From: Desulfobacteraceae bacterium
GTDB taxonomy: Bacteria; Desulfobacterota; Desulfobacteria; Desulfobacterales; BuS5
Assembly: GCA_030642865.1 (NCBI GenBank)
Contig: DAOWMW010000014.1
Coordinates: 1 to 11,680 of the forward strand
Reading direction: 5' to 3'
DNA length: 11,680 nt
The notes under the pieces are model-generated. The model was not told the origin of the DNA and searched no databases. It worked only from the letters and a program-made list of their open reading frames with translations. Shown here one piece after another: positions 1 to 11,680 of this stretch; position 1 is the first letter of the stretch, and each line of letters opens with the position of its first letter. Made by a program: the position numbers and the translations under genes.

Positions 1-26
1 ATACTCCCTTTGCTCAATATCCATCT

Positions 27-43
27 ATAGATTGTCAGGCAAT
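27..43 (+). repeat. Left copy of a long-distance inverted repeat
   Basis: This 17-base stretch reappears in inverted orientation at 10884-10900, with 15 of 17 positions matching and a 12-base identical core (ATAGATTGTCAG). The two copies flank the whole catabolic and regulatory block. No transposase or integrase gene is present. A 12-base inverted match is expected by chance a few times in a window this size, so only the flanking position makes it notable. Confidence 0.25.
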
Positions 44-127
44 CAGGATCGTGAATTTTATAAATTACACAGAATTATTTGTTCTTGTGCCCGTATTCCA
101 TGTTGCATCAATGCCCAAAATTGCGTA

Positions 128-149
128 GGGGCATCCCTTGTGGGTGCCC
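128..149. repeat. Small intergenic palindromic repeat
   Basis: GGGCATCC at 129-136 pairs with GGGTGCCC at 142-149 (one T.G wobble) around a five-base loop. The pattern, a GTAGGGGC start, a CCCTTGTGG centre and a GTGCCC end, resembles the short GC-rich palindromes dispersed between genes in many deltaproteobacterial and cyanobacterial genomes. It sits downstream of the mutase operon and could act as a weak RNA hairpin. The rest of 1-248 shows no convincing gene. A 64-codon TTG-start frame at 32-226 reads straight through this repeat and has no protein-like features. A six-base stem with a 16-base loop lies at 214-241 but has no T-run, so it is not a convincing terminator. Confidence 0.5.
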
Positions 150-248
150 AACAACCATGGATGCGCCTTGAAGACGGCTACAAGCCCGGCGTAATTAAGG
201 GTGATTTATTTCATCCTCAATCCTAAAATGAATTTCTTGAGGTCTGAA

Positions 249-2006
249 TTAAATTGTTGAGGCCTTGGCCACACCAAACACACCTCTTAATGTGTCACAG
301 ATCTCCTGGAGTGTAGCATAACTTCTAACACAGTTTATTATGTCAGGCATAAGGTTGACCTCTTCATCCCCGGCATGCTCCTTTAATGAGGCCAGATGTT
401 TTTTTACTTCATCATTATCACGTTCTTCTTTAAGCTTTTTAAGGCTTTCTATTTTACGTACGCCTGCAGTATCTTTTAATTCACTAGGATAAACATTTTC
501 AAGGCTTCGTTCTGATTTTACGTCAATTTCATTGGGACCATTAAAACAATTTACCCCGACTACAAATTCTTCCTGATTTTCAATTTTGCGCTGTTTCACA
601 TAAGCGTTTCTTGATACTGATTTCTGCATATATCCGCTTTCTATGGCACCAAGAGCCCCCCCCATTTTTTCGATCTTTTCAAATTCCACAGTAGCAGATT
701 TTTCTATATCATCGGTCAGTTTTTCCATGAAATAAGAACCTGCCCAGGGATCATTCACTTCTCCCAGTTTGGCCTCATAAATAAGAATTCTGGTGGCATC
801 ATGGCCCAACTGCTGTGCTTCAAGACTGTGACCCAGACCGAGGGGCTCATCATAGGGAGGCATGGCAGCAAAGGGAAGAGCCCCGGACATTCCAGCCGCA
901 ATACCACCCACAACAGCTCTGGAAATATTATTAAGGGGTCGCTGGAGTGTTGTGCTTGAACATCCAATATGGGCAGTCGAGATCTGCCGGATCATCATTC
1001 CCCTGGGGTTTTTGGCACCAAAACGTTCTTTTAGCATTTTTGCCCACATTCTCCGGGCAGCACGCTGAAAAGCAATCTCCTGATAGATTTCCATACTTCC
1101 ACCGAATCCGTTAAAAGTAACCCTGGGTGCTATTTCATCAATATCAAGCCCTCCATCAATGGCTACCTGCAAATAGGTTGCCCCGATTGCCATACTGTAA
1201 GCAAGATCCATTTCTCTAGTGGCACCTGCTTCACGCATATGGTACCCGCCTATGCTGGTGACATTAAGCCGGGGCATATTTTTTGTGCAAAAAAGAGCTG
1301 TATCTCTGAAGAGCCTCAGTGCAGGACGAGGCGGGAAAATATAGGTTCCCCTTCCTACATATTCTTTTAAAATATCGTTTTGCGGCGTACCCCTGAGTTT
1401 TTCAAGGGGAATTCCACGTTTTTCAGCCAAAACAGCATACATGGCAATTATAACCGACGCAGCAGAATTCATTGTAAAATTTGAAGCAACTTTGTCAATT
1501 TCAAGATCATCATGGTACGCTTCATAAACAATTTCAAAATCTTTTAAACTATCTATGGCAACACCCACTTTACCGACTTCCCCTTCAGCACGGGGGTCAT
1601 CAGAATCATAGCCGCACTGCGTGGGAAGATCAAAGGCAAAATTTGGTCCAGCTTTTCTGCCTATTTTGTGCATACGCAGCAGGTAATCACGATAATCTTC
1701 AGGTGTACCAAACCCTGCGTATTTACCGGCTCCGCTGCCTCCGGTGCTGCCCCATTCGTACCTGGTACTGGCTATGGCCTGTTTAGCAGCAAAAGCCTGC
1801 CATTTGGGCACAGGGTCATTTCCTGCTGTATAGGGATAGGTTCCCGGATAGCCAACTTTATCCAAAAAATTAAAGCCTTCAATATCCTTGGGCGTATAAA
1901 ATTTTGTTTGATTCTCTTTAAGCTTAAATTTTCCCAACCGAGGCTTTACAACCTTTTCCTCCCAAAGTTCTGTTGCTTTGTTAACCTTTTCCATTTCATT
2001 ACTCAT
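249..2006 (-). CDS. Atypical methylmalonyl-CoA-mutase-like large subunit (acyl-CoA mutase)
   Basis: Predicted 585-residue B12-dependent acyl-CoA mutase catalytic subunit (TIM-barrel part). Family landmarks are present: YPYT at 57-60, YAGFGT at 96-101, DLPTQCGYDSDDP at 126-138, GYH with the conserved His256, and DPWAGSYF at 419-426. No C-terminal cobalamin-binding domain (DxHxxG) is visible, so a separate small subunit is needed and is not in this window. The segment between YPYT and YAGFGT (about 61-95) is longer than usual and lacks the YxxRPWTxRQ substrate-binding stretch of classical mutases. The usual LRTQQ region is replaced by LGHDATRIL (about 400-408). The start at 2006 follows an AAGGAGA ribosome-binding site. 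The gene lies 60 bp after the PrpD-like gene and is probably co-transcribed with it. Beside a fumarate-adding enzyme, the likely role is rearrangement of a substituted succinyl-CoA, as in anaerobic alkane degradation (inference). Family certain, substrate unknown. Confidence 0.88.
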   Translation of the reverse strand: MSNEMEKVNKATELWEEKVVKPRLGKFKLKENQTKFYTPKDIEGFNFLDKVGYPGTYPYTAGNDPVPKWQAFAAKQAIASTRYEWGSTGGSGAGKYAGFGTPEDYRDYLLRMHKIGRKAGPNFAFDLPTQCGYDSDDPRAEGEVGKVGVAIDSLKDFEIVYEAYHDDLEIDKVASNFTMNSAASVIIAMYAVLAEKRGIPLEKLRGTPQNDILKEYVGRGTYIFPPRPALRLFRDTALFCTKNMPRLNVTSIGGYHMREAGATREMDLAYSMAIGATYLQVAIDGGLDIDEIAPRVTFNGFGGSMEIYQEIAFQRAARRMWAKMLKERFGAKNPRGMMIRQISTAHIGCSSTTLQRPLNNISRAVVGGIAAGMSGALPFAAMPPYDEPLGLGHSLEAQQLGHDATRILIYEAKLGEVNDPWAGSYFMEKLTDDIEKSATVEFEKIEKMGGALGAIESGYMQKSVSRNAYVKQRKIENQEEFVVGVNCFNGPNEIDVKSERSLENVYPSELKDTAGVRKIESLKKLKEERDNDEVKKHLASLKEHAGDEEVNLMPDIINCVRSYATLQEICDTLRGVFGVAKASTI

Positions 2007-2066
2007 AATAAAATCTCCTTATTTTTTAATCAATACAGAATTAAATGGGTAATTTTCAAATCCCAC

Positions 2067-3398
2067 TCAACTGCGCATTAATGCAAGCAAGTTTCGCACA
2101 TTATCCAATGTTTCAAGAGTCATTATAGCATCGGCCAGTTCTTCTGCCCTGCTTTCACCAATAGCTGGAGAAGAGAGATCTATAAATTTATCTCTGATTT
2201 TCACTTTTTTTGTTTCAAGTTCCGGGATATCGCTCATTACATCCATACTGGCTGTAAAAACTTTTCCAGAGGTTGTTTCGATCCTGGTAACTGCTTCTAA
2301 AGCCTTAAGTTCATCCGTTGATTCAAGGGTTATCTTTTTCATCAATTCGACCACAACAGGGTCATTAACCTTTGTATCGGTAAATGCTTTGGTCCCGGTA
2401 TCCCCCCTTAACAGAGCATTGGCAACACAATAGGATATACTGAATTTACCTTCGAGTCCTGTTTTTGGTTCAGGCTTTCCTGCAGCTCCAATAGCAAGGG
2501 GTGAAACTTTAATATTTATCGCCTTGATATCGTCCAGAGCAAGTCCTTCATCTTTTACAATGGCGAGGGCGCCTTCTATGGGAGAATGCGTTGCATGGCA
2601 GGAAGAATGGTATTTCTGCACAAGATCTTCAACTTCCCATTTGCCATTTAGACCGGCAAGGGCATCTTCATTATACTTTCCGCTAAAAACATCTATAAAA
2701 CCTGATTTTCCTTCTATAATATCCGGGGCGCTTGTAAAACCGTCTGCGGCCAGCAGAGCAGAAATAAGCCCGCCCTGGGAAGCTTTCCCAGCATGATAGG
2801 GTTTACACATTGTACCAAAAGAAATTTTGAGCCCGGAGGCCTGGGTTCCTGCCAGGCCAAGAGCAAAGACCGTTTGGCCTTCATCAAGGCCCAAAAGCCT
2901 GGCACATCCGGCTGCCGAAGCAAAGTGCCCATAAGTTCCTGTCCCGTGCCACCCTCTGATATAATGCTCCATCCCGCCGCAGGAGGCAATAACTGATCCT
3001 GCCTTTAATCCCACAAGATATCCAGTTAACAAATCTTTTCCAGTCATTTCTTTCCATTCAGAAACAGCAAGTAGAGCTGGATAAAGGGTTACGGTTGGAT
3101 GTCCCACCATGGCTTCAAGGGAATCGTCAAAATCAAGGGCATGGGACGCTGCTCCATTAATAAGAGCAGCCTGAACTATACTTTTTTTAATATCAAACCC
3201 CAGGATAGTGGCCTGCTCATTTCCGCCCATCAGGTCAGAAAATTTAACCAGCTTTGCAACAAGGGGATCTTCTTTTCCTGCAAGAGTAACCCCCGTCCAG
3301 TCCATAAAGGCGATTTTAGCATGTTCAAATGCCGCTTGTGGTATTTTTTCGGCATCACTGTTAACAATAAATTTTGCAATTGAACGGGTAAAATCCAT
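2067..3398 (-). CDS. MmgE/PrpD-family protein (2-methylcitrate dehydratase / aconitate decarboxylase-like)
   Basis: A 443-residue cytoplasmic protein covering the full MmgE/PrpD fold. Visible signatures are DWTGVTLAG (33-41), NGAASHALDFDD (81-92), GHP with His100, RGWHGTGTYG (148-157) and KPYHAGKASQGG (199-210) with Lys205. A CHATHSP motif follows in the C-terminal half. By analogy with cis-aconitate decarboxylase (IRG1/CAD), the Asp/His/His/Lys set lines the active site, so the protein looks catalytically competent. Members dehydrate 2-methylcitrate, decarboxylate cis-aconitate or act on related acids; sequence alone does not settle which. The start at 3398 has a GGGAGG ribosome-binding site eight bases upstream. 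It is first in a two-gene unit with the mutase-like subunit. Its presence suggests a role in handling a branched di- or tricarboxylic acid from the pathway or the propionyl-CoA it releases (inference). I know of no established step for it in alkane or toluene degradation. Confidence 0.87.
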   Translation of the reverse strand: MDFTRSIAKFIVNSDAEKIPQAAFEHAKIAFMDWTGVTLAGKEDPLVAKLVKFSDLMGGNEQATILGFDIKKSIVQAALINGAASHALDFDDSLEAMVGHPTVTLYPALLAVSEWKEMTGKDLLTGYLVGLKAGSVIASCGGMEHYIRGWHGTGTYGHFASAAGCARLLGLDEGQTVFALGLAGTQASGLKISFGTMCKPYHAGKASQGGLISALLAADGFTSAPDIIEGKSGFIDVFSGKYNEDALAGLNGKWEVEDLVQKYHSSCHATHSPIEGALAIVKDEGLALDDIKAINIKVSPLAIGAAGKPEPKTGLEGKFSISYCVANALLRGDTGTKAFTDTKVNDPVVVELMKKITLESTDELKALEAVTRIETTSGKVFTASMDVMSDIPELETKKVKIRDKFIDLSSPAIGESRAEELADAIMTLETLDNVRNLLALMRS

Positions 3399-3435
3399 AT
3401 AAAAAAACCTCCCATAGTTATTGTAATCGGTTCAT

Positions 3436-3452
3436 CCACCCACCCACCCTTG
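3436..3452 (-). promoter_or_regulatory. G-tract element in the leader of the PrpD-mutase unit
   Basis: On the minus strand this reads CAAGGGTGGGTGGGTGG: three GGG runs and one GG separated by single T bases, starting 54 bases upstream of the PrpD start codon. In RNA this could form a two-layer, or partial three-layer, G-quadruplex. Its first 11 bases (CAAGGGTGGGT) are identical to 7911-7921 in the leader of the glycyl-radical enzyme. The surrounding sequence is AT-rich, so the element stands out. Confidence 0.35.
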
Positions 3453-3748
3453 TACTCGACAGGTTGTTTTACCATATTTTTTCAACACCCAGGCAAGGCG
3501 ACATTTTCATGGGTAAAAATTATCATTAATGCCCGAACAAAAATCCCTTTTTTTATTCAAATATTAATCTGTCTGAACAATATGTCTTTATATTATAATA
3601 GAAACATAATTTATAGTATATATTTTCCGGTACAAAATTATGATAGATTCACTTAAATACAGCAATTTGTCAACGATTTTTCTGGAATGCTTACTAAAAA
3701 ATCAGCTTTTAAGGATAGAAAATGGGAGTTTAGGGTATAGAGGGAACC

Positions 3749-3757
3749 ATTATAGCA
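3749..3757 (-). promoter_or_regulatory. Extended -10 promoter candidate for the PrpD-mutase unit
   Basis: The minus strand reads TGCTATAAT, a perfect extended -10 element, beginning eight bases beyond the response-regulator stop codon and preceded by an A-rich run in that gene's last codons. Transcription would start near 3742 and give a leader of about 340 bases before the PrpD start. Another TATAAT (minus, 3597-3592) and a TTGACA (minus, 3673-3668) lie in the same gap, but neither has a well-spaced partner. No sigma-54 -24/-12 pair was found here. The rest of 3399-3764 is AT-rich apart from the G-tract element, and no gene is visible in it. Confidence 0.4.
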
Positions 3758-3764
3758 AAATATA

Positions 3765-5165
3765 TTAAAATTTTTTTTTATCAAGTCCATAGGCTTTCAT
3801 TTTTCGATTAAGAGTCCGTGGATTCATCCCCGAAATTTCAACAACCTTATTAATTCTGCCGCCGCACCTGTTTAACGCCTGCTTAATATAATTGCGTTCA
3901 AATTCAAGTAGCTGTTCCTTCAGAGGAGCCTGCAGGTGCGGGATTATTAAGGCAGACTCTTCTTCACCGGAAACAGCATATTCATCACCAGTGATACAAA
4001 ATCTGGAAATCATTTTTTCCGAGGTCATAATTAATGTCCGCTCAATTACATTTAACAGCTCCCGAACATTTCCGGGCCATGGATATTCCATGGCCTGGTT
4101 CATGGCTTCTGTGGAAATTTTCATGGGATCTCTCCCCATACGTTTTGCAAGATGATTTATAAAATGCCTGATTAAAAGAGGAATATCGTCTTTTCTGTTT
4201 TTTAAAGGAGGTACAGATATTGGAAACACATTCAGGCGATAATAAAGATCTGCTCTGAAGTTACCCTGCTTAACAAGATGCATCAGGTCCTGATTCGACG
4301 CAGCAATGATTCTCACGTTAACTTTTATCGATTTTTCCCCCCCCACCCTGTGGAAGGTTTTATCCTCAATCAGCCTCAAAAGCTTTTTTTGTACTAACTG
4401 GGATGCATTTTCAACTTCATCCAAAAAAACAGTTCCCCCATCCGCCTGTTCAAACCGGCCATACTTCATCCCCAAAGCCCCTGTAAATGCTCCTTTTTCG
4501 TGGCCGAACAGCTCCGACTCAAGAAGAGTCTCCGCAAGAGTACCACAATCGACAACAACCATGGGAAATTTTTTCCTGTTGCTGTTATGGTGAATCGCCT
4601 TTGCAAGCACTTCCTTTCCTGTGCCGGTTTCCCCATAAATCATAACAGTTACATCTAAAGGAGCCACATTTCTGATCATGCCGAAAACAGTACGTATAGC
4701 CTTGCTTTTACCTATGAGATTTCCCAGCCTGTATTTTTCTTCGATCCTCCCCTTTAACTCCCCCACATAATTTTTAAGCTTTCTATTTTCTTCCTGCAAA
4801 ACAATTTTTTCACCTATTTTATCAAGAACAATACGCACATGATCAAAATTTAACGGTTTTACCAGAAATTCAAAGGCACCCCCTTTCATCGCTTCCACAG
4901 CCGACTCCACAGTTGCATAGCCAGTAATAACTACAATTTTAACATGGGGATAAGTCCCACTGATCTGCTTTACCACCTCCTGACCTGAAATGCCCGGCAT
5001 GTTTAAATCGGTTATCACAACATCACAATTTTTTTCTGACAATATTTTCATGCCGCTGGCTCCATCGGAAGCAAGAAAAATTTCGTGCCCCCATTTTGAA
5101 AGCCTCAGGCGAAAGGTTTTTAGTATTGATTTTTCATCATCTATAACCAGAATTTTTAATTTCAT
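3765..5165 (-). CDS. NtrC-family sigma-54-dependent response regulator
   Basis: A 466-residue enhancer-binding activator with all three domains. The receiver (about 1-120) has the acidic pocket D9/D10, phosphoacceptor D53 in ITDLNMPG, T81 and K103. The AAA+ domain (about 150-385) has Walker A GETGTGKE (178-185), an intact sigma-54-contact loop GAFTGA (225-230) and Walker B TVFLDE (245-250). A C-terminal Fis-type helix-turn-helix (about 423-463) ends in the RTLNRKMKAYGL recognition region. It should hydrolyse ATP to open sigma-54 promoters when phosphorylated. It starts 72 bp after the kinase gene on the same strand, so the two form a cognate pair. The ribosome-binding site is weak (AGGG-like). 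The likely target is the -24/-12 promoter at 7784-7799 ahead of the glycyl-radical enzyme (inference). Family call is firm; the regulon is inferred from position. Confidence 0.95.
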   Translation of the reverse strand: MKLKILVIDDEKSILKTFRLRLSKWGHEIFLASDGASGMKILSEKNCDVVITDLNMPGISGQEVVKQISGTYPHVKIVVITGYATVESAVEAMKGGAFEFLVKPLNFDHVRIVLDKIGEKIVLQEENRKLKNYVGELKGRIEEKYRLGNLIGKSKAIRTVFGMIRNVAPLDVTVMIYGETGTGKEVLAKAIHHNSNRKKFPMVVVDCGTLAETLLESELFGHEKGAFTGALGMKYGRFEQADGGTVFLDEVENASQLVQKKLLRLIEDKTFHRVGGEKSIKVNVRIIAASNQDLMHLVKQGNFRADLYYRLNVFPISVPPLKNRKDDIPLLIRHFINHLAKRMGRDPMKISTEAMNQAMEYPWPGNVRELLNVIERTLIMTSEKMISRFCITGDEYAVSGEEESALIIPHLQAPLKEQLLEFERNYIKQALNRCGGRINKVVEISGMNPRTLNRKMKAYGLDKKKF

Positions 5166-5237
5166 TTAATAACTACCCTTATGCTGTAACTGTGCAATTC
5201 TCTTGATCGGCACACAAATAATTTCATTCAGCCCAGG

Positions 5238-7613
5238 TCACCTGAAAGAAGATATGTCAGACCGTTGCAGCAACCGTATTATATCGGTTTTGCTAAAAGG
5301 CTTTTGCAATACTTCTATCCCCAGGGCGCCTATAATCTCTTTTTTTTCCTGTTCGAGAAAACTGGTCATAAACGCAAAACGATTAAGATATTCAGGGCGT
5401 AAAGAACGGACCTCCTGGTATAATTCAAATCCGCTCATCTTCGGCATTTTAATCTCTGCCAGCAAAAGGTCATATCCCTTTACCTTAATCTTTTTTAAAG
5501 CCCCATAGCCGCTGTAAACAGCATCAATATCGCAGCACATACTCGACATATGGTTTGAAACGGCTGTGGATATATGGGGATCATCATCCACCACTAAAAT
5601 AGAAAAAGGGATTGTATAAAGATCCCTGGATTTATCAAAATGTGCATCAAAAGAAGACCGGGGCAGGGGAAATCTTATTTTAAATTTTGCTCCGATTTTA
5701 CATGTGGTATCCACAGAAATAGCACCCCCCATTTTTTGAATCATTCCGTGAACAATTGATAAACCAAGGCCCGCACCTTTTTGTCCATGCCTGGTGGTAA
5801 AAAAAGGATCAAATATTTTAGTAATTCGGTCACCAGGTATCCCTGGGCCATTATCCTCCACCATCAGAACAGCACTCCCTCTCTCAACAAATGTCCTGAT
5901 AATAATCATGTCCCCCTTGCCGGACTCCTCAATTACATTAACGGCATTACGAACCAGATTTAATAATACCTGCTGAATTTCAATTACACCAGCCACAATA
6001 GATTTTATTGCAGGATCAAGTTCGAGAACCAATTTAATATTTCTCTTTTTCACTTCATTAATCCGAATGTTAACCAAATCCCTTATAACTTCATTCAAAT
6101 TAATCATAGAGCCTGTGAAGGCCTCTCTGCCGGCAAATTCAGAAAGGTTTTCCACAATTTTTCCGGCCCGCCTGGCATCGTCAACTATTATTTTTGCTGC
6201 TTCTGCAGATTCTTCCACAAGTTCGGGATATTCCTCTAGATGTTCGGCACATCCTATAATGCTGGTTAGTGGATTATTCAGCTCATGGGCGATTCCTGAA
6301 ATAAAAAGTTTTAACGAACTCATTTTTTCTGATTGAATTCTCACCCTTAAAATTTCTTCTTCCAGGCGATTACGCTCAGTGACATCGTCCATAATAAGAA
6401 CGGTTCCCCTTGTTCCTCCCACTGACCCCCTCAAGGAAGCAGCATTTACATCAAACAAAAGATCATCCTTTCCGTCAACTTGTAAAACCATCTTCATTTT
6501 ACCAAAATATATTTTTTCTTTTTTCCCTCCAGTTATCTTTTTCCATGACCGATCAGTCATGTATATCCCAAGCCCTGACAGTCTTTTCCCCTTGAACGAC
6601 TCAACAGTTTTTCCAAGCTTGATTTTCATATCGGGATTTACAAACATAACACGGTCATTCTCATCAAGATAAATAATTCCCACAGACGCGGCATTGACAA
6701 TATTTTGATTAAACAATTCTGTTTCACGCAATATCATTGTAATCTGGCTGACTTCTTTTTCAAGACGATTTGAATATTCTTTTTCATGGGCTATCATCAG
6801 CTCACGGAGATGGACCTGCTCTGCTATATCGATAATCTCCATTGCCAAAAAAGCAACATTACCTGCGGAATTCAAAATAGGACTCACAGCAAAAAGAAAT
6901 GATTTGGGTTCACTCTTTCCCAGAGCAAGGGAGACCTCCATGCTCACCTTTTTCCCGGCTCCGGCATTTTTAACTCCCCTTTGAAGTTTTTTTTGAGTTT
7001 TACTTGAGTGCCCGAGCCAGACAGTGTCACACAGATACTGTTCTACAATTTCAGAATGGGTTATATTCATTGCGTTTAAAAAAGGCTGATTACAGGAAAT
7101 AACCCTTCCCTCCTTGTCGCATTTGGCAACGTATGCACCCATGGAATCGATCCACTTCTGGGATTCCCACTGCTCTTTCCTGATTTTAGCCTGAAGCCTT
7201 TTCTGCTCGGCTATGCTTTTACCTTCGGGAACAACAGCAATGATTTTCCCCTTTGTATCGCGCACCGGAGAAATCGAAAAAAGCATGGGAACCCATTTAC
7301 CATCCCGATTAATGATAAAATCCTCAATCACCGAGCTTTTCCCAGTAAAAGCTTTTGCCATCATACCCTTTGTCAGAGAAACAGCTTCTTTGGAATAGAT
7401 ACGCCAGGGAGAATCAAGAAAATCGATGCCAACGATTTTATCGTATGAGGTATTTATTTTTTTTAAGGCAGCCCTATTTGCATATAAAACCTTCCCTTTT
7501 AAATCTAAAATTCCCACCATTGTATCCATGTAATCAAGGGTGTGAGCCAGAATACGCAAAAATTCCAGGGTACATGCCTCTGGGCTAAAATGCATTTTTT
7601 CAGTTTCACTCAT
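5238..7613 (-). CDS. Soluble triple-PAS hybrid sensor histidine kinase with degenerate receiver
   Basis: A 791-residue kinase with no signal peptide and no membrane-spanning segment, so it should sense a cytoplasmic signal. Order of domains: PAS1 (about 15-135), PAS2 (about 152-270), a short linker helix, PAS3 (about 300-415), HisKA with H443 in IAHELNNPL, and an ATPase domain with N556, the DNGPG box (587-591) and the GAGLGLS box (613-619). A C-terminal receiver follows (about 670-788). In that receiver the acidic pocket (D676/D677), T750 and K771 are kept, but the phosphoacceptor position in LLLAEIKMP is Glu720 (codon 5454-5456), not Asp. The receiver therefore probably cannot take phosphate and may be locked or structural. 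The start at 7613 has a GAGG ribosome-binding site. The design recalls soluble PAS kinases that sense aromatic hydrocarbons (TodS/TmoS); the ligand here is unknown. It is encoded upstream of its partner activator and divergently from the glycyl-radical enzyme. Confidence 0.93.
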   Translation of the reverse strand: MSETEKMHFSPEACTLEFLRILAHTLDYMDTMVGILDLKGKVLYANRAALKKINTSYDKIVGIDFLDSPWRIYSKEAVSLTKGMMAKAFTGKSSVIEDFIINRDGKWVPMLFSISPVRDTKGKIIAVVPEGKSIAEQKRLQAKIRKEQWESQKWIDSMGAYVAKCDKEGRVISCNQPFLNAMNITHSEIVEQYLCDTVWLGHSSKTQKKLQRGVKNAGAGKKVSMEVSLALGKSEPKSFLFAVSPILNSAGNVAFLAMEIIDIAEQVHLRELMIAHEKEYSNRLEKEVSQITMILRETELFNQNIVNAASVGIIYLDENDRVMFVNPDMKIKLGKTVESFKGKRLSGLGIYMTDRSWKKITGGKKEKIYFGKMKMVLQVDGKDDLLFDVNAASLRGSVGGTRGTVLIMDDVTERNRLEEEILRVRIQSEKMSSLKLFISGIAHELNNPLTSIIGCAEHLEEYPELVEESAEAAKIIVDDARRAGKIVENLSEFAGREAFTGSMINLNEVIRDLVNIRINEVKKRNIKLVLELDPAIKSIVAGVIEIQQVLLNLVRNAVNVIEESGKGDMIIIRTFVERGSAVLMVEDNGPGIPGDRITKIFDPFFTTRHGQKGAGLGLSIVHGMIQKMGGAISVDTTCKIGAKFKIRFPLPRSSFDAHFDKSRDLYTIPFSILVVDDDPHISTAVSNHMSSMCCDIDAVYSGYGALKKIKVKGYDLLLAEIKMPKMSGFELYQEVRSLRPEYLNRFAFMTSFLEQEKKEIIGALGIEVLQKPFSKTDIIRLLQRSDISSFR

Positions 7614-7636
7614 TGTGTATGACCTCGGGAAATTTA

Positions 7637-7665
7637 TGTAAAATAAACAACTTCAAAACAGTCAA
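7637..7665 (-). promoter_or_regulatory. Possible sigma-70-type promoter for the kinase-regulator pair
   Basis: On the minus strand TTGACT (7665-7660, five of six to consensus) is followed after 17 bases by TTTACA (7642-7637, three of six). Initiation would fall close to 7629, leaving a short leader before the start at 7613 that still includes the GAGG ribosome-binding site. The -10 is poor, so this is tentative. A basal promoter would suit a sensor pair made before induction. Confidence 0.3.
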
Positions 7666-7783
7666 ATTGGACAAGACTATATTGCCCAGAAAAAGACAAA
7701 AAGTCTTATTGTTACTTCTTTTTTAAACGAAAAAGGCTGTTTTTGCCAAACATTACAACTAATTATCATATTTATTGAAACTT

Positions 7784-7799
7784 TGGCATCCATACTGCG
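7784..7799 (+). promoter_or_regulatory. Sigma-54 (-24/-12) promoter candidate for the glycyl-radical enzyme gene
   Basis: TGGCATCCATACTGC matches the RpoN consensus TGGCACG-N4-TTGC at the essential GG and GC, with the exact 10-base spacing between them; only C6, G7 and the first T of TTGC differ. A pyrimidine precedes the TGG, as is usual. Transcription should begin near 7810, giving a leader of about 245 bases. Its position between a sigma-54 activator gene pair and the enzyme gene strengthens the call. Upstream activator sites would lie in about 7620-7760. Small inverted repeats there (GTCAAATTGGAC at 7661-7672; AAGAC/GTCTT at 7693-7707) are candidates only. Confidence 0.65.
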
Positions 7800-7910
7800 T
7801 TATTCGAGGATAAGATGGAATAAAATGATATTATAAATTTATTAAGACAAGTATCAATGTATTTTTTAAATCATAGAATTTTAGCACTTTTCAAAACCTT
7901 ATTTTTATAT

Positions 7911-7977
7911 CAAGGGTGGGTTTTGCCCCCAAACCAACTCTTTTTAGAGGTTAGTTTTAACCCTGGTCATTTCAGGG
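7911..7977 (+). promoter_or_regulatory. Structured 5' leader with two mutually exclusive hairpins
   Basis: Three stem-loops can be drawn upstream of the glycyl-radical enzyme. Stem A pairs 7916-7923 with 7931-7938 (seven of eight pairs). Stem B pairs 7931-7940 with 7947-7957 (nine pairs, one mismatch, one bulge) and reuses the 3' arm of stem A, so A and B exclude each other. Stem C pairs 7961-7965 with 7973-7977. This arrangement resembles an attenuator or riboswitch switch, but no known riboswitch class was recognised and stem B has no long T-run after it. If the true start site lies downstream of this region, these would instead be DNA elements. The remaining leader to 8040 is AT-rich. Confidence 0.35.
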
Positions 7978-8056
7978 ATGGGGTACTAAATTATAAATTA
8001 ATATTGTGTAATTGTCATTTTAATTTTTAAACAACCTGATTAAAGGAGGATTTCCC

Positions 8057-10555
8057 ATGGCAACAACTGATAAGCAAAGCGAAATTAACGAATTACTGGA
8101 GAAAAGACAGTTCTGGTGGTGGGCGGAAAAAGCCCGTTCCCCCAGAATCGATTATCTGAGAAAGGCTGTATGGTCAAAAGCAACCAAAGGTGCATCTTAC
8201 CTCCCCGGAATCAAGATGGATGAATATGGTCCTGTCTTATACGCTGAAGTGTTTGAAAAACCGGAAGCCATTGCCGAAGCATATATGCTTTCCTACGCCA
8301 AAGCCCTTGAAAATGTAAACGACAATATTCCTGTATTTATTGTTGATGAATCAAGAATCGTAGGTAATTGCGCATCTGCTCCCCATAAAATTTTCTGGGT
8401 TCCCATAGGATCCTATTCCCTGAATGAAGATTTCTTTAATGATAAAGATGATCTGCTGGACAATGAATCCCGTGATGCGATAAAAAAGGGGCTTGACATA
8501 ATAAAACCATGGACGCAGCAGACTCTTACCGAAAGAATCCTCAGTAAAAGACAGATGATCATGGCCAGAACATCCCAGACATTTACAGGGGGGCCCCATC
8601 TTGAAAATACAGCTTACTGTACATCCCAGTTTGGTTATTATAAAAAAGGCTTTAATGCAATCATTGAAGAGATCGACGCTAATCTGGCAAAAGCTGATGA
8701 CGTTTTATATAAAGTCGGCGCAAAACCTGAATTTAAGGATGAAGAATACTACCTGAAAAGAGTCGACGCCTGGAAAGCTATGAAACTGACCCTTGAATCT
8801 GTGATTCGCTATGCAAAAAGGCTTGCCAGATTATCCAGAATCGTAGCTGAAAATTTTGAAACTAATCCTGAAAGGAAACAGGAGCTTTTAGATATTGCCG
8901 ACAGGTGCGAATGGGTTCCTGCAAATCCACCAAGAAACTTTGCAGAGGCCCTGCAATTTGAACATATTCAGACACAATGCCGGAAAAGAGAAAAATCAGA
9001 CGGTTCATGGCCCTCTCACCCTGACTGGTGGTTCTGGGAATGGTATGAGCAGGATGTTGTAAAAGATAAAACCATTACCAGAGAAGATGCCATGGAATAT
9101 ATGTGCGAATATCTTATCCGTGCATTTGAATATGGAAGCTGCCGCGACAGGCAGTACCGTGAGCTCATGACCGGAGACCCCGGGCCTTATGTCTGGACCC
9201 TTGGGGGAATGTCCCCCGACGGAGAATTAAAATATAATGATCTTACTAATTTAATCCTCGAGGCAGCAAGGCTTGTAAGAGTTGTTTCCCCAACTTTTGC
9301 ACTGAGATACAATAAGGATATGCCTGTTGATATCTTGAAAAATGCTTTTGAATGTGTACGCCACGGCCTTGGGTATCCCAACATAAGAAACGACCAGGTA
9401 TTAATAAAGGCAAACATGTTTTGGAGCGGCACCCCTGAAAAAGAAGCGCGCACCTGGACTGCCCAGGCATGTATAGTGCCGTGCCCTGAAACAAAAGACG
9501 GGTGTATGCCTGCACGTTATTCATCAAGTTCAACCCTGGGTTCAAAATGTGTTGAGCTCGCACTTTGGAATGGCTTTAATCCTCTGTTCAAAATGCAGGT
9601 TGGCCCCAAAACCGGTGATGTAAAAGAGATGAGCTTTGATCAACTGGCGGATGCAGTTGTTGAGCAGTATAAGGTAATGCACTGGGAAGCCTGCAAGATA
9701 AGAAACATGGCCCGCCTTATTGAAGAAAGAATGGGACGGCCCCATCTTTCGGCCACATATGAAAGATGTGTTGACGAAGGAATCAATGCTTTTGAAAGAC
9801 GGGAATATGGTAACAACTGGATCACAACATTTATCTGGATGGATGGAATGGATGCCGTTGTAGCACTTAAAAAACTTGTTTTTGATGAAAAAAAATATAC
9901 CATGGAACAGGTTTTGGAAATGCTTACGGCCAACTGGGAAGGATATGAAAAAGAACGTATGGATTTTGTCAGAGCTCCCAAGTGGGGAAATGATGATCCC
10001 TATGCAGATGAAATCATCGTAAAATTTCATGAAAGGATGCGTGATGAAGTTTGCCTTCCCACTCAGTGCTGGGGTTCAACGTCCAAAGGTGTTCCCATGG
10101 TACCCCAGAATATTGCAGCATACACAGTAGCCGGCGCTCTTCTCGGAGCCCTGCCCAATGGACGGCGCATTGGAGATACATGCTACGATGGAGGATGTTC
10201 ACCGGGAGCAGGTCTGGACAAAAAAGGACCCACAGCAGTATTGCAGTCTGTTGGCAAGCTTACCCATGAAAATATGTTCAGGGCGAATCTTTTAAACCAG
10301 AGGCTTTCACCTTCTCAGCTCATTGGTGACAAGGGCTTTAATGTCTGGAAATCATATATTGAAACATGGTGCGACCTTGGGATTAATCATGTTCAATTTA
10401 ACATGATAGACAATGAAACTCTGCTTAATGCCCAAAAAGAGCCTGAAGATTATAATGAGCTTGTTGTACGGGTTGCCGGTTACAGCGCATTATTTACCGG
10501 ACTTAATAAAAGAACCCAGGATACAATAATTGCACGTACTATCCAGGAAATCTAA
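8057..10555 (+). CDS. Fumarate-adding glycyl-radical enzyme, catalytic subunit (alkyl-/arylalkylsuccinate synthase type)
   Basis: An 832-residue oxygen-sensitive radical enzyme predicted to add the C-H carbon of a hydrocarbon-like substrate to fumarate. The glycyl-radical loop RVAGYSALF (805-813) carries Gly808, 24 residues from the C-terminus as usual. The thiyl cysteine is Cys472 in QACIVPCPETK. QVGPKTGD and APKWGNDD (640-647) are shared with benzylsuccinate and alkylsuccinate synthases and separate it from pyruvate formate-lyase and diol dehydratases. Length is close to AssA/MasD (about 830) and shorter than BssA (about 860). An AAAGGAGGAT ribosome-binding site precedes the start at 8057. 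The residues just before Cys472 (NMFWSGT, TWTAQAC) differ from those I recall for canonical AssA (MYWHGQ, TWVENAC), so substrate is not assigned. The nearby mutase favours an alkane-type pathway. The activase and small subunits are not in the window. Expression is probably sigma-54 controlled. Confidence 0.9.
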   Translation: MATTDKQSEINELLEKRQFWWWAEKARSPRIDYLRKAVWSKATKGASYLPGIKMDEYGPVLYAEVFEKPEAIAEAYMLSYAKALENVNDNIPVFIVDESRIVGNCASAPHKIFWVPIGSYSLNEDFFNDKDDLLDNESRDAIKKGLDIIKPWTQQTLTERILSKRQMIMARTSQTFTGGPHLENTAYCTSQFGYYKKGFNAIIEEIDANLAKADDVLYKVGAKPEFKDEEYYLKRVDAWKAMKLTLESVIRYAKRLARLSRIVAENFETNPERKQELLDIADRCEWVPANPPRNFAEALQFEHIQTQCRKREKSDGSWPSHPDWWFWEWYEQDVVKDKTITREDAMEYMCEYLIRAFEYGSCRDRQYRELMTGDPGPYVWTLGGMSPDGELKYNDLTNLILEAARLVRVVSPTFALRYNKDMPVDILKNAFECVRHGLGYPNIRNDQVLIKANMFWSGTPEKEARTWTAQACIVPCPETKDGCMPARYSSSSTLGSKCVELALWNGFNPLFKMQVGPKTGDVKEMSFDQLADAVVEQYKVMHWEACKIRNMARLIEERMGRPHLSATYERCVDEGINAFERREYGNNWITTFIWMDGMDAVVALKKLVFDEKKYTMEQVLEMLTANWEGYEKERMDFVRAPKWGNDDPYADEIIVKFHERMRDEVCLPTQCWGSTSKGVPMVPQNIAAYTVAGALLGALPNGRRIGDTCYDGGCSPGAGLDKKGPTAVLQSVGKLTHENMFRANLLNQRLSPSQLIGDKGFNVWKSYIETWCDLGINHVQFNMIDNETLLNAQKEPEDYNELVVRVAGYSALFTGLNKRTQDTIIARTIQEI

Positions 10556-10573
10556 AATCAATAATCAATAGCA

Positions 10574-10596
10574 GGGGCAGAATTTATTTCTGCCCC
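10574..10596 (+). terminator. Stem-loop terminator candidate after the glycyl-radical enzyme gene
   Basis: GGGGCAGAA (10574-10582) and TTCTGCCCC (10588-10596) form a perfect nine-pair stem with a TTTAT loop, 18 bases past the stop codon. There is no T-run after it, so it may stabilise the 3' end or work with the next stem rather than act as a classical intrinsic terminator. Confidence 0.55.
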
Positions 10597-10621
10597 AATC
10601 CTTAGCCGGCAGGCTTGTAGT

Positions 10622-10655
10622 GCCGGTCGGGGTGTCGCCTGACCGGCTTTATATT
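10622..10655 (+). terminator. Second stem-loop, GC-rich with a T-rich tail
   Basis: GCCGGTCGGG (10622-10631) pairs with CCTGACCGGC (10638-10647): ten pairs including one G.T, with a six-base loop. TTTATATTT follows. This is a better intrinsic-terminator shape than the stem at 10574. The tail TTTATATT also pairs perfectly with AATATAAA at 10666-10673, so the tail could be tied up in a third stem. If the adjacent domain-V-like element is real, these two stems could be what remains of a domain IV arm. Confidence 0.45.
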
Positions 10656-10678
10656 TGGTAAGAAGAATATAAATCGGG

Positions 10679-10713
10679 GAACCGGATGAGGGAACTCTTC
10701 ACGTCCGGATCTG
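10679..10713 (+). other. Group II intron domain-V-like remnant
   Basis: The stretch folds as a lower stem (GAACCGGA with TCCGGATC, one A.A mismatch), a T/ACG internal bulge and an upper stem (GAGG with CTTC) closed by a GAACT loop. This is the layout of group II intron domain V: roughly 34 bases, an eight-pair lower stem, an asymmetric two-to-three-base bulge and a short capped helix. The AGC catalytic triad usual near the 5' side reads AAC, which suggests decay or a variant class. No reverse-transcriptase gene is present. A strong hairpin follows directly at 10718-10750, where domain VI would lie. The call rests on shape and remembered consensus only. Confidence 0.45.
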
Positions 10714-10717
10714 TAAT

Positions 10718-10750
10718 CAGAAATTTATAAACCAAATTTGTAAATTTTTG
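10718..10750 (+). other. Long AT-rich hairpin after the domain-V-like element
   Basis: Bases 10718-10731 pair with 10737-10750: 14 consecutive pairs, two of them G.T wobbles, around a CCAAA loop. It could be a domain VI equivalent, but no clear bulged branch-point A or typical 3' splice site (AY) was recognised. It could also be a stand-alone hairpin. Confidence 0.5.
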
Positions 10751-10759
10751 CTTTCAGCG

Positions 10760-10768
10760 TGCTATAAT
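10760..10768 (+). promoter_or_regulatory. Extended -10 promoter candidate firing into gene-free DNA
   Basis: TGCTATAAT is identical to the candidate at 3757-3749 on the other strand. A weak TTGTAA lies 19 bases upstream of the TATAAT. Transcription would begin near 10775 and run rightward, where no plus-strand gene exists in the window, so the product would be a non-coding RNA or an RNA antisense to the epimerase gene. Confidence 0.35.
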
Positions 10769-10883
10769 CCGCACTAAATGAGTGGCACGAGACCTTAAAG
10801 TAAATATTTTGGGTGCGTTATCGGTCGTTGGAGTACTATACACCTTCCTTCTCCCTGCCCTTGTGCCAAATTAAAATTGGTTA

Positions 10884-10900
10884 ATTATCTGACAATCTAT
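10884..10900 (-). repeat. Right copy of the long-distance inverted repeat
   Basis: This is the reverse complement of 27-43 with two mismatches. It lies in the AT-rich tract between the hairpin cluster and the truncated epimerase gene. No target-site duplication could be recognised beside either copy. Confidence 0.25.
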
Positions 10901-11040
10901 TAAATTTTCATTTTTTTTGGGACTCCTTAATCCTGGAGCATAAAGAAAAATGATTATAACATTGAATTAATGATTAAGTTATGATATTTACCTAGTGTTA
11001 ATTTAAACATTGGTGAAAAAATATCTTGATATAATTATAC

Positions 11041-11071
11041 TAATGTAGTAACTTAAATACATTATTTTTTT
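11041..11071 (+). terminator. AT-rich stem-loop with T7 tail, plus-strand orientation
   Basis: TAATGTA (11041-11047) and TACATTA (11058-11064) form a perfect seven-pair stem with a ten-base loop, followed by seven T bases. It is oriented to stop plus-strand transcription just before it runs into the convergent epimerase gene, and overlaps that gene's stop codon. The stem is weak because it is almost all A/T. Confidence 0.4.
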
Positions 11072-11680
11072 ATGCAGAAGGTGATGGAAGTAGAATAGTC
11101 ATCATTACCACGGCTTCTTCCATGCCTTCGGGTCGCTCGTGGGCTTCTCGGATATTGAGAGCGGGGAAATTTAATATGGATGATTCTTCACTAATGGTTC
11201 CGCTGTCAGATAGCGCTGCACGGGCATTTTTCTGCAGATTAACATAGTCAAAGAATCCAAGTGGTTTTAGGAGTTCAATATTGTTATTAAAAGAGACGCC
11301 AATGGTTTCTACCTTTTTTCTTGTTCTGGGGTGTGTTGAAACAATAATTCTTTTCTTGAAATGTTCGGCCAGTTTGTTCAAAACTCCAACGAGCTTTGCA
11401 AAATTTGCATCAGAGTCGATATTTTCCTCTCTATGGGCGCTTACCATAAAATAATCGTGAGTCTTTAATCCCAACTTTTTTAAAATTTGGGAATTGTCAA
11501 TGTCGTTCTTGTAGTGATAAAGCACCTCATACATGGGGCTGCCGGTTTTGATAATCCGGTCAGCAGGAATCCCCTCTCGCAGTAAGTATTCACGTGCTAT
11601 GTCGCTATAGGGCAAATTGATATCACTGATATGATCAACAATTTTGCGGTTGATTTCTTCCGGCACACGCTGATCAAAAC
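11070..11680 (-). CDS. wecB: UDP-GlcNAc 2-epimerase family protein, partial and C-terminally truncated
   Basis: Only the 3' portion of the gene is in the window, and the frame stays open to the right edge, reading [12 protein letters not shown] without interruption. A GTG at 11666 is internal, not the start. Conserved family blocks are [14 protein letters not shown], a SAHREEN loop, [18 protein letters not shown] and REAHERPEG, which contribute to UDP-sugar binding and epimerisation at C2. The SAHREEN version resembles the surface-polysaccharide branch (CapG/WbjD/WbpI-like), so the exact sugar is uncertain. The protein ends as [16 protein letters not shown], whereas homologues continue for roughly 60 more residues with a GLxxERV-type helix after VMMT. 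The missing tail is not found in another frame nearby, so the 3' end looks cut by a rearrangement and the gene may be inactive. It runs toward the glycyl-radical enzyme gene and is functionally unrelated to it. Confidence 0.88.

Follow-up and report, generated by a model that had tools for sequence, protein, structure and literature searches.

Fumarate addition is a main route by which microbes attack hydrocarbons without oxygen, and marker-gene surveys of this process rely on the known clades of X-succinate synthases (XSSs). We analyzed an XSS-type glycyl radical enzyme encoded in an 11,680-nucleotide stretch of a Desulfobacteraceae bacterium (assembly GCA_030642865.1, contig DAOWMW010000014.1, positions 1 to 11,680, forward strand; hereafter the window). 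This enzyme belongs to a real and distinct clade of XSSs, surrounded by genes of the alkylsuccinate type. The clade is uncharacterized as far as could be found; no study of it was found in the open-licence PMC literature.

Several described systems lie close to the window enzyme. MasD of strain HxN1 (PDB code 9o8u; PMC12358834), referred to by MASS numbering below, shares the fold, the catalytic cysteine, the glycyl loop, the fumarate-binding arginine, and a tyrosine, a threonine, and a phenylalanine with the window enzyme. MasE-like small open reading frames (ORFs) beside the orthologues of the window enzyme and an alkane-type mutase nearby add to this likeness, whereas the sequence identity of 42–43%, the exchanges Glu690 to Gln and His474 to Ala, the apparent loss of a gate tryptophan, and the separate clade set the window enzyme apart. 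BssA (PDB codes 4pkc, 4pkf, and 5bwd) has the XSS fold, the cysteine, the fumarate arginine, and a glutamine at the Gln707 position in common with it. However, identity to BssA is 29–30% in a fold alignment, the positions occupied by Ser, Asn, and Ile in BSS carry Tyr, Thr, and Phe in the window enzyme, and the latter has mutase-type neighbors. The atribacterial fumarate-adding operons (PMC6776118) combine an XSS with the mutase route and a DctPQM transporter, comparable to two orthologue loci described below (genomes G001 and G003); the closest match to the atribacterial enzyme is, according to its authors, a BssA (about 55%). Limonenylsuccinate synthase (PMC12583861) is likewise an XSS, one whose modified pocket has been proposed to suit a different substrate, but shares 61% with T. 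aromatica BssA and is assigned to the BSS/NMS branch by its authors. An uncultured sister clade of XSS type, for which we coined the label RRWVHQACMAPA (P0035 onward), is a neighbor group in the tree and is present with 3–4 copies or pieces in the genome of the window itself.

Family and Clade of the Window Enzyme

The 832-residue protein matches two Pfam families, PFL-like with 348 bits (cut-off 24) and Gly_radical (PF01228) with 97 bits (cut-off 22), and scores 748 bits against MasD (PDB code 9o8u) and 438 bits against BssA. Gly808, which is unvarying in a 26-row alignment, lies in the glycyl loop VRVAGYSALF, and Cys472 pairs with MASS Cys477. Together with the APKWGNDD block at residues 640–647, these features bear out the XSS-type assignment that had been made in a sequence-only reading of the window.

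A protein search gave 145 matches at E 1e-50 or better. Among the best 120 of these 145, P0001–P0028 (58–100% identity) make up the group to which the window protein belongs. The main tree holds 101 chosen rows, 99 of them different, with P0027 and the G069:C44 protein (L033) not included. In this tree, the clade of the window protein comprises 32 rows, P0028 among them, at a support of 100 in the Shimodaira–Hasegawa-like approximate likelihood ratio test (SH-aLRT). It also includes the C166 copy from the same genome (79% identical), the orthologues of G003 and CSMAG_469, and two copies of DeMMO5_3, one of which is a partial gene. The clade sits inside a larger group of 41 rows (support 99) with P0029–P0034 and their kin, in which the HQAC motif ending in the cysteine is kept by P0031–P0034 and changed in P0029 and P0030. 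The latter two XSS-like proteins carry a serine at the position of the fumarate arginine and may bind another co-substrate. Outside the 41-row group lie the RRWVHQACMAPA clade (17 rows, support 98), the AssA/MasD clade (20 rows, 100), and the BSS-type clade (12 rows, 100); no row was identified by name as NmsA, HbsA, or IbsA.

The window protein thus falls outside the BSS-type clade, and a placement among canonical AssA/MasD was rejected as well: the main tree keeps the two apart, and constraining a tree of 41 chosen rows to join them costs 228 log units (approximately unbiased test, p-AU 1.9e-8). The trees therefore uphold the distinct clade that had been proposed from the sequence alone, and the pocket residues mapped from MASS differ, too. 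In a class-wide draw of 389 genomes, close orthologues (E 1e-245 or better) were found in four, that of the window included.

The clade carries its own motifs near the catalytic cysteine. MFWSGT at residues 454–459 and TWTAQAC at 466–472 stand where they had been read previously, and their general forms [MQK][FY]WS[GN] and W[TVNS]AQ[AS]C occur in 26/27 and 27/27 clade members, respectively, and in none of 120 AssA/MasD homologues. These counts cover clade members of at least 740 residues, which excludes P0027 (625 residues), and their groups follow the hit lists; 27 of the 28 clade proteins are present in the tree, the other groups by samples. Because the motifs are common to the clade and missing from all 120 AssA/MasD homologues, they are neither chance nor drift in a single sequence. 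The strings MYWHGQ and TWVENAC, which had been named as canonical for comparison, were not confirmed: VENAC occurs in 0/120 AssA/MasD homologues, among which W[VLIMA]H[QM][AS]C is found in 102/120 and M[YH]WHG in 60/120. MasD of strain HxN1 reads MHWYGH...TWVHMAC at the matching places.

Residues of the Active Site

The fumarate and alkane residues of MASS are named in PMC12358834. On alignment, Cys477, Arg492, Tyr194, Thr598, Phe600, and Glu690 of MASS correspond to Cys472, Arg487, Tyr187, Thr590, Phe592, and Gln684 of the window protein. A second, homologue-wide alignment pairs His474 with Ala469; His474 is a site picked in this analysis, and the available part of the MASS paper gives it no role. 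The fumarate-binding arginine (Arg487) is kept in 27/27 clade members. Among homologues of at least 740 residues, the MASS 690 position is Gln in 27/27 members of the window clade, but Glu in 116/120 AssA/MasD and 59/60 RRWVHQACMAPA proteins, and the MASS 474 position is Ala in 27/27, but His in 104/120 and 58/60, respectively.

At the position of the gate residue Trp185 of MASS, none of the 27 clade members has a tryptophan, and the window protein has Thr177 or a glycine by alignment. This region aligns poorly, and the mapping of Trp185 and Phe192 depends on the alignment and is given little weight. The alkane-gate tryptophan may have been lost in the clade. Taken together, the compared residues suggest that the fumarate side of the pocket is retained and the hydrocarbon side altered, from which it is plausible that the window enzyme acts on a substrate different from that of the n-alkane enzyme.

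Link to the Alkylsuccinate Route

The gene neighbors of the window enzyme point to the alkylsuccinate route. In 38 regions that were selected for a close mutase or PrpD homologue, a sample biased towards linkage, mutase and PrpD occur together in 26. A canonical AssA-type gene is present in 16 of the 38, accompanied by PrpD in 16/16 and by a mutase large subunit in 14/16, the latter with 55–69% identity to the window mutase. The order mutase small subunit, mutase large subunit, MeaB, PrpD, activase, AssA is found in 11 of these 16 regions. In G049, the mutase, MmgE/PrpD, and a sigma54 two-component set stand beside canonical assA in an order similar, not identical, to that of the window. In a less biased sample, PrpD is also carried by 4 of 8 contigs with an XSS hit outside the window clade and the RRWVHQACMAPA clade (seven AssA-type by tree; G069:C44 not in the tree). 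A PrpD orthologue occurs somewhere in 9/9 genomes with an XSS hit, that of the window included, versus 32/389 in the class draw.

The orthologue in G001, a 97% complete genome, is the only full-length match to the Gly_radical family there. Its locus contains a comparable two-component system together with three small Cys-containing ORFs, a pair of PNPOx-like ORFs, genes for an activase and for AAA and VWA proteins, MmgE/PrpD (65% identical to that of the window), MeaB, and a TRAP transporter, followed by two ECH proteins and a carboxyltransferase. The locus of G003 matches that of G001 from the small ORFs through the transporter, which follows MeaB at a distance of 12 bp (G001) or 0 bp (G003). 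XSS-type small ORFs thus adjoin orthologues of the window enzyme: two of the three in G001 match MASSdelta (MasE) with E 1.9e-8 and 5.2e-5, and the third matches MasB with only E 0.88. On contig C62 of the window's own genome, an activase occurs together with a MasE-like stretch.

A Candidate for the C2-Epimerization Step

The strongest new lead is an epimerase candidate beside the XSS gene. Degraders of n-alkanes form two C2 epimers of alkylsuccinates and toluene degraders one stereoisomer; an epimerase activity was inferred and positioned after CoA activation (PMC4561516). An α-methylacyl-CoA racemase has been put forward for this step, but atribacterial and Smithella genomes reportedly have none (PMC6776118). 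Members of the MmgE/PrpD family isomerize free methylsuccinate, one tested member being inactive on the CoA ester, and space for larger C3 substituents was noted (PMC12290011). Such activity on free acids would put epimerization before CoA activation.

The nearest solved relatives of the MmgE/PrpD protein of the window are iminodisuccinate (IDS) epimerase (PDB code 2hp0; E 6e-56) and a Bacillus IRG1 homologue. All six catalytic residues listed for IDS epimerase (PMC12290011) are present as His86, Asp89, His100, His151, Lys199, and Lys262, and Tyr146 occupies the place that we assigned to the catalytic tyrosine. Across 31 proteins, residues H85, D88, H99, H150, and K198 of IDS epimerase and the tyrosine (Y145, assigned here) are found in 31/31, and K266 in 30/31 with one gap. 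The window protein shares the six residues and the tyrosine at its assigned place with (S)-(R)-methylsuccinate isomerase and IDS epimerase, but occurs in alkylsuccinate-type rather than itaconate clusters. These residues and the gene setting make the MmgE/PrpD neighbor a testable candidate for an alkylsuccinate C2-epimerase. No proposal of MmgE/PrpD for this role was found in the open-licence PMC literature; in PMC7180275, the MmgE/PrpD gene of D. alkanexedens is listed without a function. MmgE/PrpD shares a stretch with canonical assA in L119, L121, L122, L124–L128, L130–L134, L136, L139, and L146, mostly together with activase, mutase, and MeaB.

Coverage by Published Primers

The two motif segments had been taken for assA primer sites, which is not so in two primer sets checked. 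Those of PMC4703814 lie at MasD residues 395/398 and 657, those of PMC4681840 map to window residues 349, 376, 641, and 802, and the segments fall within the amplicons. Seven published primers were compared with the window gene. The broad pair 1156F/2004Rmod shows 2 and 0 mismatches (0 and 0 for each of the G001 and DeMMO5_3 orthologues), whereas 7757f and 7766f have no fewer than 7 and 10 mismatches, respectively, at any site in the gene. Canonical AssA controls gave 0, 0, 1, and 8 (G069) and 1, 0, 9, and 8 mismatches (G049) with 1156F, 2004Rmod, 7757f, and 7766f, respectively. The expectation that assA surveys miss the clade is thus borne out only in part: the older forward primers 7757f and 7766f fit the gene badly, although the former also differs at 9 positions from the canonical AssA of G049, and the pair 1156F/2004Rmod fits almost perfectly. 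The FECVR motif of the window protein belongs to the list used for accepting MasD reads in the survey of PMC4703814. The window clade would therefore escape some surveys, while others could have yielded amplicons of it that were recorded as masD.

Features of the Window and Further Observations

Table 1. Features of the 11,680-nucleotide window
Feature	Position	Strand	Basis or remark
Methylmalonyl-CoA-mutase family large subunit, 585 aa, alkylsuccinyl-CoA-mutase type by similarity	249..2006	-	Pfam: catalytic domain only
MmgE/PrpD family protein, 443 aa, candidate substituted-succinate C2-epimerase	2067..3398	-	
Sigma54-activating response regulator, 466 aa	3765..5165	-	Pfam
Hybrid PAS histidine kinase, 791 aa	5238..7613	-	Pfam
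Divergent promoter region, 443 bp, between kinase and enzyme genes	7614..8056	.	no convincing small-subunit ORF
AAAGGAGG, likely ribosome-binding site of enzyme gene	8042..8049	+	sequence
XSS-type glycyl radical enzyme α subunit, 832 aa	8057..10555	+	ORF call, Pfam, tree, matches to MasD and BssA
MFWSGT codons (residues 454–459), clade signature	9416..9433	+	
TWTAQAC codons (residues 466–472), ending in catalytic Cys472; Ala469 = MASS His474	9452..9472	+	
Arg487 codon, counterpart of fumarate-binding MASS Arg492	9515..9517	+	
Gln684 codon, counterpart of MASS Glu690 / BSS Gln707	10106..10108	+	
Gly808 codon, radical-bearing glycine	10478..10480	+	
UDP-GlcNAc 2-epimerase gene fragment, running off contig end, apparently unrelated	11070..11678		

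When compared with human methylmalonyl-CoA mutase in an alignment, the mutase of the window retains the tyrosine and the arginine that we take to be the succinyl/malonyl carboxylate contacts. Homologues of the histidine kinase lie beside the G001 orthologue (41%) and beside canonical assA in G049 (45%), as do homologues of the response regulator (59% in both). The sigma54 consensus, with up to 3 mismatches allowed, has no match in the divergent promoter region; across the entire window it matches once, at 11384 with 3 mismatches, versus 4.9 matches expected by chance. No Rfam matches and no tRNAs were found in the window.

In the window genome (67% complete), L009 (C166), L010 (C173), and L011 (C152) contain the second clade copy (79% identical) and four further sister-clade XSS genes or pieces. 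Two of the pieces, located where C166 and C173 end, may be parts of a single gene. This contig scan used a single-protein query and gave 4 loci; an alignment query might reach further. In DeMMO5_3 (L025, 7292–16733), genes for a CoA transferase, a mutase, and two ECH proteins precede a row of four glycyl radical enzyme genes. Three of the four are of XSS type, with one truncated at the end of the locus, and the fourth is of another type. A PNPOx-like protein pair lies near the enzyme gene in five loci (L045, 2675–3742; L046; L025; L027; L028) and was not found in the window. A protein of 170–174 residues recurs near activase/VWA genes (L044, 3605–4117; L050, 14159–14680; L012, 6002–6526; L059, 4975–5496); one of these was tested and had no Pfam match.

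Proposed Reaction and Alternatives

Judged from its sequence and setting, the window enzyme is probably the catalytic subunit of a working, uncharacterized XSS clade that feeds the alkylsuccinate route. Gly808 would hold the radical and hand it to Cys472, the thiyl radical of which would abstract hydrogen from a C–H bond of the substrate, and the resulting carbon radical would add to fumarate bound by Arg487. The MmgE/PrpD protein may then epimerize the X-succinate at C2; thioester formation, rearrangement by the B12 mutase, decarboxylation, and β-oxidation would follow, as in the n-alkane (AssA/MasD) route. The neighboring sigma54 two-component system probably controls expression of the enzyme.

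Several observations weigh against this proposal. No convincing small subunits were found in the window (tblastn up to E 10, and both intergenic stretches scanned for a double CxxC motif), nor in the 67% complete genome with two of the three G001 queries. G001 and G003 are without a close mutase orthologue, and of the 26 regions that combine mutase with PrpD, 12 (L112–L118, L120, L123, L129, L135, and L141) have no visible XSS-type gene nearby within the stretch, although some of these lie at contig ends; the mutase–PrpD pair is therefore no proof of XSS linkage. In a structure model of the window enzyme, residues 785–832 (the glycyl domain) are of low confidence (pLDDT <50).

As to the substrate, the changed pocket suggests that the enzyme is more than a duplicate of the n-alkane one, and the substrate is perhaps not an n-alkane. 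A speculative reading, less likely than not, is a clade specialized on a compound other than n-alkanes, with a pocket rebuilt around Gln684 and Ala469 and without an aromatic gate, which would join the alkylsuccinate route with MmgE/PrpD as the C2-epimerase that converts the free X-succinate ahead of CoA activation. That the enzyme is instead a functionally ordinary n-alkane synthase, its motif changes being neutral drift between paralogues, would agree with the alkane-type genes around it and its orthologues (mutase, MeaB, carboxyltransferase, and PrpD) and with the retained Phe592, Tyr187, Thr590, and Arg487. We consider this rather unlikely, given that both exchanges, Glu690 to Gln and His474 to Ala, are clade-wide where AssA/MasD mostly keep Glu and His, that the clade is separate in trees, and that the same genome also encodes sister-clade enzymes with HQAC (P0048 and the C152 protein).

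A serious possibility, if one that we do not favor, is that fumarate is added to a polar or transported compound, such as a carboxylate or a cyclic or branched acid. The residues at the Trp185 position and at that of Phe192, where 24/27 members have Thr, Ala, Gln, Ser, or Gly, would fit such a substrate, as would the TRAP transporter directly after MeaB in G001 and G003 and an MFS transporter in the L028 cluster of a neighboring clade. However, the Trp185/Phe192 region gives Thr177 in one alignment and Gly in another, the window has no transporter, with a DctP homologue (50%) on a different contig of the genome, and the TRAP genes of the atribacterial operons were read as serving fumarate/succinate uptake (PMC6776118). 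Glycyl radical chemistry of the lyase or dehydratase type is very improbable. One fold supports many chemistries in the superfamily, and the neighbors P0029 and P0030 are without the fumarate arginine, but the window clade keeps it throughout and stands in the XSS branch of the tree, and the small ORFs beside its orthologues and the mutase-pathway neighbors likewise disfavor another chemistry.

A clade with fixed pocket changes broadens the question of XSS substrates. Furthermore, because PrpD recurs in assA clusters and members of its family isomerize free methylsuccinate (PMC12290011), the MmgE/PrpD candidate makes the uncertain C2-epimerization step of the alkylsuccinate route testable.
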